A stretch of DNA of 36,505 nt from a virus, in IMG/VR virus record IMGVR_UViG_3300044530_001173, positions 1 to 36,505 of that record; one strand, 5' to 3'. The notes under the pieces are model-generated. The model made no database searches. It saw only the letters and a program-made list of their open reading frames with translations, and had not been told where the DNA came from. The translations under genes and the position numbers were made by a program. Below are positions 3,508-36,125 of this stretch, in pieces; the first letter of the stretch is position 1, and each line of letters starts with the position of its first letter.

Positions 3508-4100
3508 TTCCACCAACTTTCAATATTTTCACTCAAGATTTTGAAAAGTAATTTCCTTGCTCTTTCGTGATTGTATCTTCCAATATTCAAGGCAATTCTT
3601 GATTTAACTTCGTATGAAGTTAAGTCCTCGTTGTCGATTTTAAAAATATGATATTTTTTATCAGTAACAATTTTCTTGTAAACCAATGGATATTTTTTGA
3701 AAAAATCATTTAAGTTTTCTTTTTTCAAAAGTGTCTCCATATAATAACCACCCAATACATCTTCAATATCATCACCTGTTGGAACAAAGAAAAAATCTTT
3801 ATCCTCGTAGTCCATATATTCCATTATATAAAACTCTTCCTGAACTTTTTCCATCAGTTTAACACACAACATCATCCTTTTAGCGTCAAGTTCTGAATTG
3901 ACGTGAAATCCTTTTTCTTTAATGTACTTAGACTGTTTTTCTAACTTAAATTTGAATACCTCAAAAATATAATGGTCGTCCCAATCACGGTCTTTCCAAA
4001 TCACAGGAAACCACTTAATTAAATTACCGACAGATGTAGAAAAGTTTCTAACGGGATTTTTAAAATATTTCCAAATAAAATCACTTAGTTTTTCTTTCAT
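3504..4100 (-). CDS. conserved phage-type hypothetical protein
   Basis: The product has 198 residues rich in Lys, Trp and Tyr. Notable segments are NLIKWFPVIWKDRDWDDHYIFEVFKFKLE at about 27-55 and a C-terminus HERARKLLFKILSENIESWWN. I recall similar WFPxIWKDRDWD proteins in large phages, always without a function. It is coupled by an ATGA overlap to the short gene upstream (4097-4303). Confidence 0.7.
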   Translation of the reverse strand: MKEKLSDFIWKYFKNPVRNFSTSVGNLIKWFPVIWKDRDWDDHYIFEVFKFKLEKQSKYIKEKGFHVNSELDAKRMMLCVKLMEKVQEEFYIMEYMDYEDKDFFFVPTGDDIEDVLGGYYMETLLKKENLNDFFKKYPLVYKKIVTDKKYHIFKIDNEDLTSYEVKSRIALNIGRYNHERARKLLFKILSENIESWWN

Positions 4101-5389: not shown

Positions 5390-6088
5390 ATGAAAGAATT
5401 ATTAAATAACCCTGAAACTATAAAAAATTTTAAACTTTTACATTATATCCTATTAAGTAATGGTCTTACTCGTGTCAGTAATGACTTTTATGTTGATTAC
5501 GACGGGAATGTTGATTATCACTTCTCACCTTGGACTAATAAAGGTGGAGCTTATGATATTATACCTAATAAATTATTTGATTTTTTAGATAATTTTTTTG
5601 ACACTATTAAAGATGAAGTTTTAGATTCATTAGAAGGTGATGGTGATTCTAGAGCAACGGTGTCATGTGAGTATTCAACAACAGACAAAACTTTAATAAT
5701 TGAAGAAAATATTCAAACTATGGGTTATGAATCATATTACCAAGAGTTTGAAATTGACGAAAAGGAATTACTTGAAGATATGGTTCAGTGGAAAGAAGAT
5801 GGTAAACTTAAAATTAGTGTTAATTTTAGCGGTGATGGTGATTCAGGTTATATTGATGACGTTGGTCTAATCAATGATAGTGATGACAAACATTATGAAT
5901 TTACAGCGGTTTGGGAAAATAAGTTATACAACATTTTGGAACAAAATCATGGTGGATGGGAAATAAATGAAGGCTCTGAGGGAACATTTATAATTAACAA
6001 TGAAAACCAAACTATAGAACTAGATTTTCGTATGAATGTTGAAGAATCCTCAACAGGTTACGAATTTAAACACCAATTTGAGTTTTAA
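5390..6088 (+). CDS. acidic hypothetical protein, DUF6878-like C-terminal half
   Basis: The start is placed at ATG 5390 (MKELLNNPETIKNF), 7 bases after TATTTAT. The upstream in-frame ATG at 5375 would read through that motif. The 232 residues are very acidic. Residues from about 150 contain NFSGDGDSGYIDDV and NHGGWEINEGSEGTFIINNENQTIELDF, a pattern I recall from DUF6878 and related phage proteins (GxGDSGxIxD ... HGGWEINxGxxG). The role is unknown. Confidence 0.7.
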   Translation: MKELLNNPETIKNFKLLHYILLSNGLTRVSNDFYVDYDGNVDYHFSPWTNKGGAYDIIPNKLFDFLDNFFDTIKDEVLDSLEGDGDSRATVSCEYSTTDKTLIIEENIQTMGYESYYQEFEIDEKELLEDMVQWKEDGKLKISVNFSGDGDSGYIDDVGLINDSDDKHYEFTAVWENKLYNILEQNHGGWEINEGSEGTFIINNENQTIELDFRMNVEESSTGYEFKHQFEF

Positions 6089-6402
6089 TAAACCTGAATA
6101 GTTCTTTGTGGTCTGTCGTCACCAAAGTCAGGACAGAAATAGGTATTATTACCATCGTGGTAAATTGTTCCACCAACTCCATTAGGAATTTTGTGTTTTT
6201 CATGGAATTTTTCATCCAAATCTATTTGGTAATTCCCATCATGAATTAAAAAACATAAATTTTCATAACCACACTTATATTGTTGGTCTTTGTTTTTATG
6301 TCTCATAAATTCGTCAAAAGACATTACATATCTCGCATCTTCGTTAATGTGTCTTTTAACGATGTATTCTAATTGACTTTCTGTAATAATAAACTTTTTC
6401 AT
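6085..6402 (-). CDS. tagged hypothetical protein
   Basis: The product has 105 residues, beginning MKKFIITESQLEYIVKRHINED, the ITES tag in its most typical form with a second candidate site INE. The body (FHEKHKIPNGVGGTIYHDGNNTYFC) has no recognised domain. TATTTATAAG lies just upstream of ATG. It converges with the gene at 5390 by a 4-base overlap. Confidence 0.7.
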   Translation of the reverse strand: MKKFIITESQLEYIVKRHINEDARYVMSFDEFMRHKNKDQQYKCGYENLCFLIHDGNYQIDLDEKFHEKHKIPNGVGGTIYHDGNNTYFCPDFGDDRPQRTIQVY

Positions 6403-6416
6403 ATCTTATAAATATA

Positions 6417-8078
6417 TCAAACAATTGGTTTATAAAATTTATGATTTCCGATTGTTGTAGTGTATTTTAATTTGGAATAATCCCAACTTGGTTTAATTGA
6501 CGTTGTATGGTAAAATTCAGCACCTTTTGTATTATCAGTACCTTTCTTTTTAATATAATTTTTAACAAGGTTTTGAGCGGTTTCCCAAGCGGAACCATCC
6601 TTAGGGTTTTTTAAAATAGATTTATTTATCTTATTTAAAAAATTATCAGTAGTTGTATCATTCCAAATTGAAAATTGTTTTTTTTGTAAAACAACATCTT
6701 TTGGCGATTTTTTTAGACTATCTGCTCTATTTCTAATAACATTTGCAACTGCTTTCATTCCTTCAGAACCTTCTCCTCTAGCCTCCCCCCATATGGTTGC
6801 GGCAACAATTAAATCATCTTTAGTTAAATTGTCTTTTTCTATTGGTTTTATTGTTTTTACCATTTTCTTAGCGCCGTCAATAACACCTTCTTTTGATTTA
6901 TCACTAGCACCCGTCAACTTGTTAACGTCATCCCAAAAAGTATCTGAGTTTTGATTTTGTTTTATACCCATAATTTTATTCACATCATCAAAAACTGATT
7001 GTTCGTTAACATTTGGTTTTAAAACCGTCATTGCTTCAGGAAAATCTTTATTTAAAACATCTTCGTCTTTATTATCGTAAGGAATATTTTGTAAAACGTA
7101 TCTAATTGAATTTAAACCTGAAATTTTCTTATCATTAGAATCTAAAACAACCCAAGGGTGGTTAACTGTTGATGTCTTATCAAAAAGTTTTTGTTTATAC
7201 TCTGTGAACTTTTCCCATACATCTTGCATCTTTTCATCATTCTCAGAATACTTCCAATATTTCAATGGTGACTTTTGTCTGAAATCAAATCTTTTAGCCT
7301 GAGTTTCTTTATCTATTGAGAACCAAAGTTTAAATAGATAATCACCATCAACAACCAATGATTCTTCAAAGTCCTGAACATTATCCATAAAGTCCTCATA
7401 CTCTTCTGAAGAACCGTAACCCATTACAGGTTCAACTAAACCTCTATTATACCAACTTCTATCAAAGAAGTTTATCTTACCTTTCTCAATTTGATTTCTG
7501 TATCTATCCCACCAGTTTTTTCTTTCGTCAGGTGTCGGAATGCCAAGAGCAATAACTTTATAATATCTTGGATTTAAGTTTTCAGTAAACTTTTTAATTG
7601 TTGAACCTTTACCTGCTGAATCTCTCCCTTCAAAAACAATAATAACAGTTTTACCTGTTTGTTTTAACCATTCTTGTAATTTTAAAAGTTCAACCTGTAA
7701 GAAAAATATTTCTTTCTTGTAAATGTCTTTATCTAAAATTGACGGTTCCTCTTCGGGACTAACAACTTCTTTTTTAGTTTTTCTTTTTTCTAATGACTTA
7801 GTTAGTTGTTTAAAAAATTCAAAAACATTAATATCCTTATTACCTTTTAATTTCAAAGTTTTTAAAATACCTCTTGTAAGTAATCCAAAATCAACTAACC
7901 CTTCTTTTGAATATTCTTCAATCTTATTAATAAATTTTTGAATTTGAGCACTATATACTTTGTTGTCTTTTAAAATTGCAACGAGAGATTTAACCTCAGG
8001 GCTATACTTTGGTTTGTCAGCTTCTGTCAAACCCATATTATTTTTTATCTTACTAACTTCAGTTAATAAATTCCTCAT
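6417..8078 (-). CDS. polyphosphate kinase 2 fused to a SleB-like cell-wall hydrolase, tagged
   Basis: The product has 553 residues. Residues 1-20 (MRNLLTEVSKIKNNMGLTEA) resemble the tag. Residues about 120-335 are PPK2: Walker A at 151-159 (GRDSAGKGS), then FFDRSWYNRG at 204-213 and the basic lid segment RFDFRQKSPLKYWKYS. PPK2 enzymes transfer phosphate between polyphosphate and nucleotides. A linker with a repeated DDVNKxxG follows. Residues about 420-553 match the SleB/Hydrolase_2 family: ATIWGEARGEG with the catalytic-type Glu, AVANVIRNR, QFSIWN, and the FYHTTSIKPSW...IGNHKFY end. That family cleaves peptidoglycan. Both domains look complete. TATTTAT lies 7 bases upstream of ATG. I know of no precedent for this fusion. 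Confidence 0.88.
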   Translation of the reverse strand: MRNLLTEVSKIKNNMGLTEADKPKYSPEVKSLVAILKDNKVYSAQIQKFINKIEEYSKEGLVDFGLLTRGILKTLKLKGNKDINVFEFFKQLTKSLEKRKTKKEVVSPEEEPSILDKDIYKKEIFFLQVELLKLQEWLKQTGKTVIIVFEGRDSAGKGSTIKKFTENLNPRYYKVIALGIPTPDERKNWWDRYRNQIEKGKINFFDRSWYNRGLVEPVMGYGSSEEYEDFMDNVQDFEESLVVDGDYLFKLWFSIDKETQAKRFDFRQKSPLKYWKYSENDEKMQDVWEKFTEYKQKLFDKTSTVNHPWVVLDSNDKKISGLNSIRYVLQNIPYDNKDEDVLNKDFPEAMTVLKPNVNEQSVFDDVNKIMGIKQNQNSDTFWDDVNKLTGASDKSKEGVIDGAKKMVKTIKPIEKDNLTKDDLIVAATIWGEARGEGSEGMKAVANVIRNRADSLKKSPKDVVLQKKQFSIWNDTTTDNFLNKINKSILKNPKDGSAWETAQNLVKNYIKKKGTDNTKGAEFYHTTSIKPSWDYSKLKYTTTIGNHKFYKPIV

Positions 8079-8126
8079 ACTGATAAATACTTTTTAATAA
8101 GTATTTTGTAAATTAATATAAACCAC

Positions 8127-27394: not shown

Positions 27395-28189
27395 ATGGTT
27401 ATTACAGATAGATTAAAACAAATTATTTTTAAACACCTATATAGAGAGTTAGGTGATTGTGAGATTATTCCTTATAATGGGTCTATATGGTTCATTAATA
27501 GGGATAATAAACATTGGTACTTTGAACTTGATGAGTCAGGTACTTTATGGTGGAGATACGATTTTTTTAATTCGTTTTTTCAAATATTCTCCATGAGTTC
27601 GGATGATTTTTGTCCTGTTCTATCTTCTTGGGTGGAAGAGGTCTTAAATCATAAGGTATCCACAACCCAGGATAGCCTGTGTAACGTATGTAAACTGGTG
27701 GAAGAGGTCTTAAATCATAAGGTATCCACAACCTTCATTCCACTTCCAATTACAACGGACAAGGTGGAAGATGTATTAAATCATAAGGTATCCACAACGT
27801 GCGATGTTAAAGTTCGTGTTCCTTGGAAGGTGGAAGATGTATTAAGTCATAATGTTAAGGTGTCTACAACTACCATTCTCAAATACCCCGAGCATTCATT
27901 GGTGGAAAAGGTCTTAAATCATAAGGTATCCACAACCGATTCACTTGATTACGTTGGAAGAATTGAGGTAGAAGAGGTATTAAATCATAGGGTATCTAGA
28001 ACCTGCCAAACAAGCGTTTATTGTGATAGGACGGTGGAAGAGGTCTTAAATCATAAGGTATCCACAACGCAGAATTTGAATTATGTCGGCCAAGGACTGG
28101 TGGAAGATGTATTAAATCATAAGGTATCTACAACGGAATCGTATTTTGGACCCTTCACAAGAGGGGTGGAAGAGGTATTAAATCAATAA
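27395..28189 (+). CDS. array gene 1: N-domain plus eight hypervariable repeat units
   Basis: The product has 264 residues. Residues 1-79 (MVITDRLKQIIFKHLYRELG ... GTLWWRYDFFNSFFQIFSM) align with the MKYLITES paralogues, but the tag E is D, so the [LI]-x-E site is lost. From residue 80 the units VEEVLNHKVSTT plus ten variable residues repeat, ending in a truncated VEEVLNQ. One unit (27830) has a two-codon insertion that keeps the frame. The variable peptides share no common pattern, although DSLDYVGRIE and QNLNYVGQGL share LxYVG. The open frame argues for translation, while the repeat geometry is that of CRISPR. The function is unknown. Confidence 0.85.
   Translation: MVITDRLKQIIFKHLYRELGDCEIIPYNGSIWFINRDNKHWYFELDESGTLWWRYDFFNSFFQIFSMSSDDFCPVLSSWVEEVLNHKVSTTQDSLCNVCKLVEEVLNHKVSTTFIPLPITTDKVEDVLNHKVSTTCDVKVRVPWKVEDVLSHNVKVSTTTILKYPEHSLVEKVLNHKVSTTDSLDYVGRIEVEEVLNHRVSRTCQTSVYCDRTVEEVLNHKVSTTQNLNYVGQGLVEDVLNHKVSTTESYFGPFTRGVEEVLNQ
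27631..28185 (+). repeat. CRISPR-like array 1: nine 36-bp repeats, eight 30-bp spacers
   Basis: The repeat starts GGTGGAAGAGGT, continues CTTAAATCAT or ATTAAATCAT, and ends AAGGTATCCACAAC. Repeats start at 27631, 27697, 27763, 27829, 27901, 27967, 28033, 28099 and 28165 (truncated). All eight spacers are exactly 30 bp and unrelated. GTGGA and TCCAC at the ends are inverted repeats. Variants: a 6-bp insertion in repeat 4 and TCTAGAAC in repeat 6. No cas gene is in the window. Confidence 0.9.
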
Positions 28190-34855: not shown

Positions 34856-34886
34856 TTTGTATTTTCAAAGTTTTTTTGTATCTTTG
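34856..34886 (+). promoter_or_regulatory. TTTG-N19-TATCTTTG promoter of array gene 2
   Basis: TTTG at 34856-34859, 19 bases, TATCTTTG at 34879-34886, then five bases to ATG 34892. It directly follows the stop of the MKYLITES gene, so the array genes are a separate transcription unit. Confidence 0.75.
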
Positions 34887-34891
34887 TGCTT

Positions 34892-35530
34892 ATGGTTACA
34901 GATAAGCTAAAACAACTCATATTCAAACACCTATACAAAGAGTTAGGTAATGTGGAGATAATCCCGTATAAAGACTCTGTATGGTTCATTGATAGGGAAA
35001 ATTGTTATTGGTATTTTCAGTTGTCTAAAGATGGATGTTTATTTTGGAGATACTCATTCTTCCCATCGTTTTTCAGTATTTTCTCTTTGGAGCAAAGTGA
35101 GTTTGAACCAATAATATCTTATTGGGTGGAAGAGGTATTAAATCATAAGGTATCCACGACAGGTAATAAGCTCGGTTACTTCTCGCGAAAGGTGGAAGAG
35201 GTATTAAATCATAAGGTATCCACAACAAAAATGTTTGTAATTGACGAATTTCCTCTGGTGGAAGAGGTATTAAATCATAAGGTATCCACAACTGAAGAGA
35301 AAACTACTGTAACAGCAAAGTGGGTGGAAGAGGTCTTAAATCATAAGGTATCCGAAACTTTTGAAGTAGACGCCGCCCAAAAAAGAAAGGTAAAAAAAGT
35401 ATTAGATAGTAGGGTATCAACAACTAAAAATAATTCCTTATTTTCCGAAAGGTCAGTGGAAGAAGTATTAAATAGTGCTTGGGTGAAAAAGGCATTAAAC
35501 AATAAAAAAGAAAATGAAAGTAACGGATAG
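34892..35530 (+). CDS. array gene 2: N-domain plus five hypervariable repeat units
   Basis: The start is ATG 34892 (MVTDKLKQLIFKHLYKELGN); a GTG six bases earlier lies in the promoter. The 212 residues comprise an N-domain 1-78, then VEEVLNHKVSTT units from residue 79 with ten-residue inserts (GNKLGYFSRK, KMFVIDEFPL, EEKTTVTAKW, FEVDAAQKRK, KNNSLFSERS). Repeat decay occurs at the 3' end (VKKVLDSRVSTT). The tail ALNNKKENESNG overlaps the start of array gene 3 by 17 bases. Confidence 0.85.
   Translation: MVTDKLKQLIFKHLYKELGNVEIIPYKDSVWFIDRENCYWYFQLSKDGCLFWRYSFFPSFFSIFSLEQSEFEPIISYWVEEVLNHKVSTTGNKLGYFSRKVEEVLNHKVSTTKMFVIDEFPLVEEVLNHKVSTTEEKTTVTAKWVEEVLNHKVSETFEVDAAQKRKVKKVLDSRVSTTKNNSLFSERSVEEVLNSAWVKKALNNKKENESNG
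35125..35480 (+). repeat. CRISPR-like array 2: six repeats, five 30-bp spacers
   Basis: Repeats start at 35125, 35191, 35257, 35323, 35389 and 35455. The first three are almost identical to array 1; repeat 4 ends TCCGAAAC, repeats 5 and 6 are degenerate. All five spacers are 30 bp and unlike those of array 1. Confidence 0.88.
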
Positions 35531-36125
35531 ATTAAGACAACTCATATTCAAACAACTATACAAAGAATTAGGTAATGTGGAAATTATCCCTACCCAATAC
35601 AGTTATTGGTTTATTAATAGAGAAGAAAAATACTGGTATTTCCAACTAACTGAAAGTGGATGTTTATATTGGAGATATGATTATTTCAAATCTTTCTTTT
35701 CTTTTTTCTCTTTGGAGTCCAAAGATTTTGAACCAATTATTTCATCTTGGGTGGAAGAGGTATTGAATAGTAAAGTATCCACAACAATTGTGCAGATGCA
35801 TCATAAGAAGGATTCGGTGGAAGAGGTATTGAATAGTAAGGTATCCACAACTCAGCAATTCAGTTTCACTTCGAATGATATGATGGAAGAGGTATTGAAT
35901 AGTAAGGTATCCACAACTGCAGGAAAGGCAGGAACTGTAACCATTGCGGTGGAACAGGTATTGAATCGTAAGGTATCCAAAACAGTCCGTGACGTAGGTG
36001 AAGGAAACTTTTTGGTGGAAGATATATTGAATCGTAAGGTATCCAAAACGGAAGAATTCATCTCAAGAAGAGCGGAATCGGTATATGAGGCATTAAACAA
36101 CAAAAAAGAAAATGAAAGTAACTGA
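35514..36125 (+). CDS. array gene 3: N-domain plus five hypervariable repeat units
   Basis: The product has 203 residues. N-domain 1-79 (MKVTDRLRQLIFKQLYKELG, GCLYWRYDYFKSFFSFFSL) is followed by units VEEVLNSKVSTT, later VEQVLNRKVSKT and VEDILNRKVSKT, with inserts IVQMHHKKDS, QQFSFTSNDM, AGKAGTVTIA, VRDVGEGNFL and EEFISRRAES. The tail VYEALNNKKENESN overlaps array gene 4 by 14 bases. It has no promoter of its own and is read with array gene 2. Confidence 0.85.
   Translation: MKVTDRLRQLIFKQLYKELGNVEIIPTQYSYWFINREEKYWYFQLTESGCLYWRYDYFKSFFSFFSLESKDFEPIISSWVEEVLNSKVSTTIVQMHHKKDSVEEVLNSKVSTTQQFSFTSNDMMEEVLNSKVSTTAGKAGTVTIAVEQVLNRKVSKTVRDVGEGNFLVEDILNRKVSKTEEFISRRAESVYEALNNKKENESN
35750..36095 (+). 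repeat. CRISPR-like array 3: six repeats, five 30-bp spacers
   Basis: Repeats start at 35750, 35816, 35882, 35948, 36014 and 36080. The first three share the variant TTGAATAGTAAGG; the next two share TTGAATCGTAAGG and ATCCAAAAC; the last is degenerate. Neighbouring repeats therefore share variants, and all spacers are 30 bp. Confidence 0.88.

Follow-up and report, generated by a model that had tools for sequence, protein, structure and literature searches.

Why should a phage gene join a polyphosphate kinase to an enzyme that cuts cell walls? The question is raised by a gene at 6417..8078 of the window, by which we mean the whole 36,505-nt stretch of viral DNA that was analysed (IMG/VR record IMGVR_UViG_3300044530_001173); this gene and all features located below lie on the minus strand unless marked otherwise. 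The original prediction had placed motifs of a PPK2 kinase and of a SleB-like hydrolase in a single 553-residue frame, and this was borne out by Pfam and by the motifs of both domains. The frame is uninterrupted, and its PPK2 domain (residues 115-338, 7065..7736; E 1.6e-70) scored 237.7 bits against a Pfam cut-off of 22.3. Walker A (EGRDSAGKG, residues 150-158, 7605..7631, within FEGRDSAGKG) and Walker B with its following Asn (FDRSWYN, residues 205-211, 7446..7466) are both intact. The residue after Walker B marks the PPK2 class, being Asn in class I, Gly in class II, and Glu in class III (PMC8776046), so that the Asn assigns this domain to class I and phosphorylation of ADP and GDP would be expected of it. 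Class I structures matched the domain (F. tularensis 4yeg, E 4.5e-65). It shares its domain type, both Walker motifs, and the class I Asn with the enzymes of F. tularensis and S. meliloti, whereas the phage version adds a tag, an N-terminal region, and a fused wall hydrolase. The region linking the tag to the kinase (residues 20-114, 7737..8021) aligned as conserved among phage PPK2s only.

The SleB (Hydrolase_2) domain (residues 435-549, 6432..6776; E 4.6e-19) scored 69.4 bits against a Pfam cut-off of 27 and follows a linker that was variable in the alignment (residues 360-434, 6777..7001). Invariant positions in a 14-member alignment include the IGxHxFY motif, which reads IGNHKFY in the window, and the first Glu of WGEARGE (residue 432), which sits just ahead of the start of the Pfam domain. 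We take Glu432 to be catalytic. Among solved structures, sequence comparison turned up a single relative, a spore cortex-lytic enzyme (4f55), with a weak match (E 0.03), and AlphaFold2 models were too weak (pLDDT 51 for the fusion, 34 for its relative in L011) and were left unused. The domain, the conserved Glu, and IGNHKFY are shared with the SleB/Hydrolase_2 endolysins (phrog_938); unlike these, the fusion lacks a signal-peptide-like start, is tagged, and is joined to PPK2. A scan of the window for Rfam families and tRNA returned none.

The frame might instead be an artefact in which two genes were run together by a frameshift or by the assembly, and the kinase and hydrolase are indeed separate genes in some relatives; otherwise nothing was found in favour of this explanation. 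A search for the domain pair in other phages, as the original prediction proposed, recovered the fusion with 100% identity over residues 1-553 in four IMG/VR contigs from different metagenomes (L002, L003, L004, L019) and over residues 224-553 in a fragment from another metagenome (L018). About 18 more contigs carry related fusions to other hydrolases. The recurrence of the identical fusion in four further contigs and a partial fifth excludes both a frameshift and an assembly join, and we give the artefact practically no credence. None of the 818 matching phage records in the isolate-phage collection covered 80% of the fusion query, and the fusion is thus absent from that collection.

The relatives differ in their wall-cutting part. 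The tag and PPK2, at 85-93% identity, are joined to GH24 domains of several kinds in L005-L010, L012-L016, L020, L021, and L032, and in L011 PPK2 is joined to an RNNNPGN transglycosylase-like domain that matches virion-type PHROGs. Tagged hydrolases also occur without PPK2: the tag MRNLLTEVSKIKSMMGLKPNINE/QS (here and below, a slash marks a predicted cut) precedes GH24 in L107-L109 and SleB in L038-L040, and a search for PPK2 on four contigs carrying a tagged PPK2-less hydrolase found none. In L114, PPK2 and GH24 are encoded by separate genes with an overlap of 14 nt. A tagged gene downstream of the fusion (..RHINE/DARYVMSFDEFM.., 6085..6402) marks the same locus in relatives; four downstream neighbour genes identify this locus, and in their tree loci of differing architecture are neighbours.

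Of 227 relatives found in a wider scan, the best 80 were kept, and among these a second fusion clade combines PPK2 with Phage_lysozyme2 (L206/L214) or with GH24 (L219). Unfused cousins among the same best 80 have a lysin gene that overlaps or abuts PPK2 (GH24 in L193 and L223, RNNNPGN in L220 and L225), and in L221 and L226 an unfused PPK2 is followed, after 42-47 nt, by a gene that encodes GH19 together with a peptidoglycan-binding domain. About half of the PPK2 loci, surveyed with short flanks and few probes, had no detected lysin beside PPK2, which we counted against a role as packaged cargo. Two alignments that mixed unrelated C-termini were excluded from the conclusions. The PPK2-hydrolase fusion arose at least twice. 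In every fusion the partner of PPK2 cuts cell walls, and these partners are of several unrelated kinds, some of them of virion type. The original prediction read the gene as one bifunctional enzyme; both domains are there, but the comparison favours a pair of separable enzymes whose wall-cutting part is interchangeable, given the swaps of partner, the two overlapping genes of some relatives, and a prohead-protease-like site between the domains. A wall-cutting module is likewise gained or lost in the pair that shares the N-terminus MNKKQLHEQSLKELRKLEYIFEEES, namely L061 8773-10431 (G002), which has Amidase_2, and L092 8989-9858 (G001), which is shorter and has no Pfam match.

Residues 1-19 of the fusion (8022..8078) read MRNLLTE/VSKIKNNMGLTE/A and contain two L-x-E sites, LLTE/V (E7) and GLTE/A (E19), each closing a short putative propeptide of the form that ends in L/I-x-E. 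In T4, gp21 cleaves after L/I-X-E, propeptides are 7-65 aa long, and the first 10 residues of IPIII are enough for head targeting (PMC9026906). The fusion's N-terminus looks like such a T4-type capsid-targeting tag. Many ORFs of the window start with short segments, of several kinds, that end in hydrophobic-x-E. The strict motif [LIVFM][TSNA]E[..] occurred in the first 30 residues of 29 of the 66 window ORFs and in 20 of 240 internal stretches (OR 8.6, p 2e-10), p-values of this kind being optimistic because many of the tagged ORFs are paralogues. With the loose motif [LIVFM]xE the count was near the background of internal windows, a result that counts against packaging, and stricter motifs were therefore used. 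In 47 of 48 distinct phage PPK2 N-termini, an [LIVM]xE ends somewhere in residues 9-36; only that of the small Moraxella phage Mcat6 departs from this, and the tag is retained at the N-terminus of every fused PPK2. The earlier description of the N-terminus as tag-like thus held up in both the strict-motif statistics and the PPK2 comparison. In some families, homologues carry tags that are not homologous and differ in length, and they can be aligned only past the E (for example, MNIKKLIKKVLTESVEKPLISE/HLNYH and MKNDKIISE/GLQYH).

Tag types on the mostly unknown proteins of the window include MKYLITESQ, MKKVVRLTESDLxRLVKRVI, MNLQENIKRILREE, and MNNIExYKxRFFNLMESTIGDVKPLISE, and the proteins that bear them are predicted to be head cargo of this phage clade. 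Three paralogous ORFs (27395-28189, 34886-35530, and 35514-36125, plus strand) have N-termini like those of the small MKYLITESQ-type ORFs and end in C-terminal arrays of a 36-nt repeat, VEEVLNHKVSTT, alternating with 30-nt variable stretches at a period of 66 nt; they resemble a CRISPR array, but the repeats are in-frame coding sequence, and the ORFs have no Pfam match.

A protease and a capsid protein to match the tag are encoded by these phages. Each of the 13 IMG/VR contigs longer than 65 kb that were tested has the S77 prohead protease (T4 gp21 type), and with shorter contigs included it was found in 15 of 29; gp23 was found in 7/7 contigs tested; both are encoded on G005, a 66-kb contig with the identical fusion. 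The gp23 homologue carries ..HLINE/ASSTADSG.. at the T4-like processing place, which we presume to be the position where T4 gp23 is cut. Phages of 634-735 kb gave sub-threshold S77 matches only, so that the link to the protease is weaker there; their PPK2s have short N-termini, ..FINE/E or ..FMNE/S. One of them, the 735-kb phage LR756501 (W03), has a second PPK2 at 447874-448578, in a 291-aa frame.

Between portal and protease, L059 has a small reverse-strand ORF (3781-3966) that is bS21-like by eye, and together with the T4-like head genes, features likewise found in the bS21 huge phages, it suggests the bS21 phage type. We suggest that the source is a T4-like huge phage of this type with predicted Bacteroidota hosts; bS21 phages are known from freshwater lakes and have predicted Bacteroidetes hosts (Chen et al. 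2022, PMC9723584). Polyphosphate kinase is unmentioned in the main text of that paper, as is polyphosphate in a survey of 224 jumbo-phage genomes (PMC7824862), and we found no description of a phage PPK2 in the open-licence literature, which leaves its absence unproven. Very long tagged proteins of 502-995 aa, without a Pfam match, adjoin the locus (L057 11630-18636 in G005; L061 1038-6174 in G002) and are candidates for major ejection proteins.

A second site of the same grammar lies between the two domains. In unfused relatives the hydrolase has a tag of its own, and KPNVNE/QS (residues 354-361, 6996..7019) corresponds to the latter half of that tag. The form (K/R)PN(I/V)NE/Q separates the domains in all aligned fusions of the first clade, and the junction of the second clade is KNINE/TEG or NHLNE/TEG, so that (I/L/V)NE is kept in both; it is like the capsid protein's LINE/AS. 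The expected count of [ILV]NE in 12 residues is 0.016, and the end [ILV][SN]E/Q is enriched 9-fold at N-termini. The window copy has V instead of I before NE, which we counted against packaged cargo, since cleavage there may be less efficient. LKPxTNE closes some of the unfused PPK2s, and LKPNINE lies within the tag of the PPK2-less hydrolase; recombination at this short homology could therefore have made the fusion while preserving the hydrolase's own tag site.

The timing of expression was approached through the upstream sequence. TATTTAT, a putative late-type promoter element common to tagged and virion genes, lies 4 nt before the ATG of the fusion gene (8083..8089). It occurs within 30 nt upstream of 41 of 73 tagged genes and of 44 of 234 others (p 3e-9). 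Neither its reverse complement nor the T4-type TATAAAT was enriched upstream of tagged genes, and the Bacteroidota-type TA..TTTG was, if anything, rarer before tagged genes and commoner before untagged ones. Untagged carriers include the prohead protease, a terminase (Terminase_6N), and a DnaB-like helicase; with the helicase and others carrying it, the element is not purely a virion mark. Two promoter classes may separate late/virion genes from the others, and we read TATTTAT as a putative late-type element, with the fusion gene probably made late. Tagged genes of the window whose start codon has TATTTAT a few nt ahead of it include those at 8078, 10493, 17717, 20097, and 21569.

We propose, and hold to be on balance probable, that the fusion is a polyprotein packaged into the head, split there, and injected into the next cell. 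The N-terminal tag would bring the polyprotein into the prohead core, where the S77 protease would take off the tag after L-x-E (E7/E19) and probably cut (I/V)NE/QS at E359, separating PPK2 from the SleB hydrolase within the head. Both would exit together with the DNA when the next cell is infected; the hydrolase, acting like the T7 gp16 transglycosylase, would help to open the peptidoglycan at entry, and PPK2 would convert NDPs to ATP and GTP early, from host polyphosphate. A role at entry was already part of the original prediction, and it is plausible through the tag, S77, the shared upstream element, and the virion-type muralytic modules of relatives, all of them indirect signs read from sequence.

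The scheme resembles that of the T4 internal head proteins (IPI-III and Alt, which have a capsid-targeting sequence and are cleaved by gp21) in the short propeptide ending in L/I-x-E and in the presence of S77 and gp23 in these phages. In contrast, the enzymes here, whose packaging is predicted, are unrelated to those proteins, and the second site between the domains suggests a polyprotein. T7 gp16 is a precedent for muralytic head cargo acting at entry (PMC8954989). The fusion is likened to this ejection protein by role, as a working precedent: it too has a muralytic domain, predicted to be head-borne and to act at entry, whereas the phage fusion has a kinase as partner and a wall-cutting fold that is interchangeable. 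In the open-licence literature we found no precedent for a polyphosphate kinase as head cargo.

Alternatively, the C-terminal domain could be an ordinary late endolysin with a metabolic PPK2 joined to it, acting in the dying cell and not at entry. The sole GH24 found in G001 and G002 is carried by the fusion, which counts against packaged cargo; most of the modules match PHROG endolysins, and the late-type upstream element suits lysis as well. However, G001 has an additional, separate, and untagged PG_binding+GH19 lysin, GH19 is present in G004, G006, G014, and G026, and a separate Amidase_2 in G001, G002, and G007. The separate untagged GH19 lysins weaken the endolysin explanation, and against it stand also the tag, common to many non-lysis proteins, and the RNNNPGN and Phage_lysozyme2 modules, which are virion types. 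No further lysin was found in G005, an absence that means little since the contigs are incomplete. Overall, we consider an ordinary endolysin unlikely.

Slightly less likely again, in our view, is that PPK2 is an auxiliary metabolic enzyme of replication and that its fusion with a neighbouring lysin is a neutral by-product of adjacency. PPK2 alone is common, and PPK2 and lysin overlap or abut as separate genes in L114, L193, L220, L223, and L225, but mere adjacency sits poorly with a tag kept on every fused PPK2, an (I/L/V)NE junction site kept by both fusion clades, and an upstream element in common with virion genes. The tags themselves might be signals for a destination outside the head, for instance a replication compartment or the membrane, for several tag types occur and no role in the virion is obvious for some of the tagged proteins. 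We regard this as very improbable, since the tag ends fit both the L/I-x-E rule of the protease family encoded here and the capsid protein's own LINE/AS.

A wider and more tentative possibility, which we hold to be somewhat doubtful, is that huge phages prepack a wall-opening enzyme and a polyphosphate-burning kinase as one polyprotein cut in the head, with the kinase arriving before phage gene expression and making ATP and GTP for the take-over. The enzymes that virions carry serve so far, to our knowledge, mainly to break through walls, to transcribe DNA, to modify host proteins, or to counter defence. If an enzyme that regenerates energy arrived along with the genome, injected cargo would gain a new class, the start of infection would be tied to the polyphosphate stored by the host, and such PPK2 cargo would extend to the phages of 634-735 kb. 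From the tag grammar, head cargo could be predicted by a simple rule across a large clade of uncultured phages, most of whose proteins have no known function.
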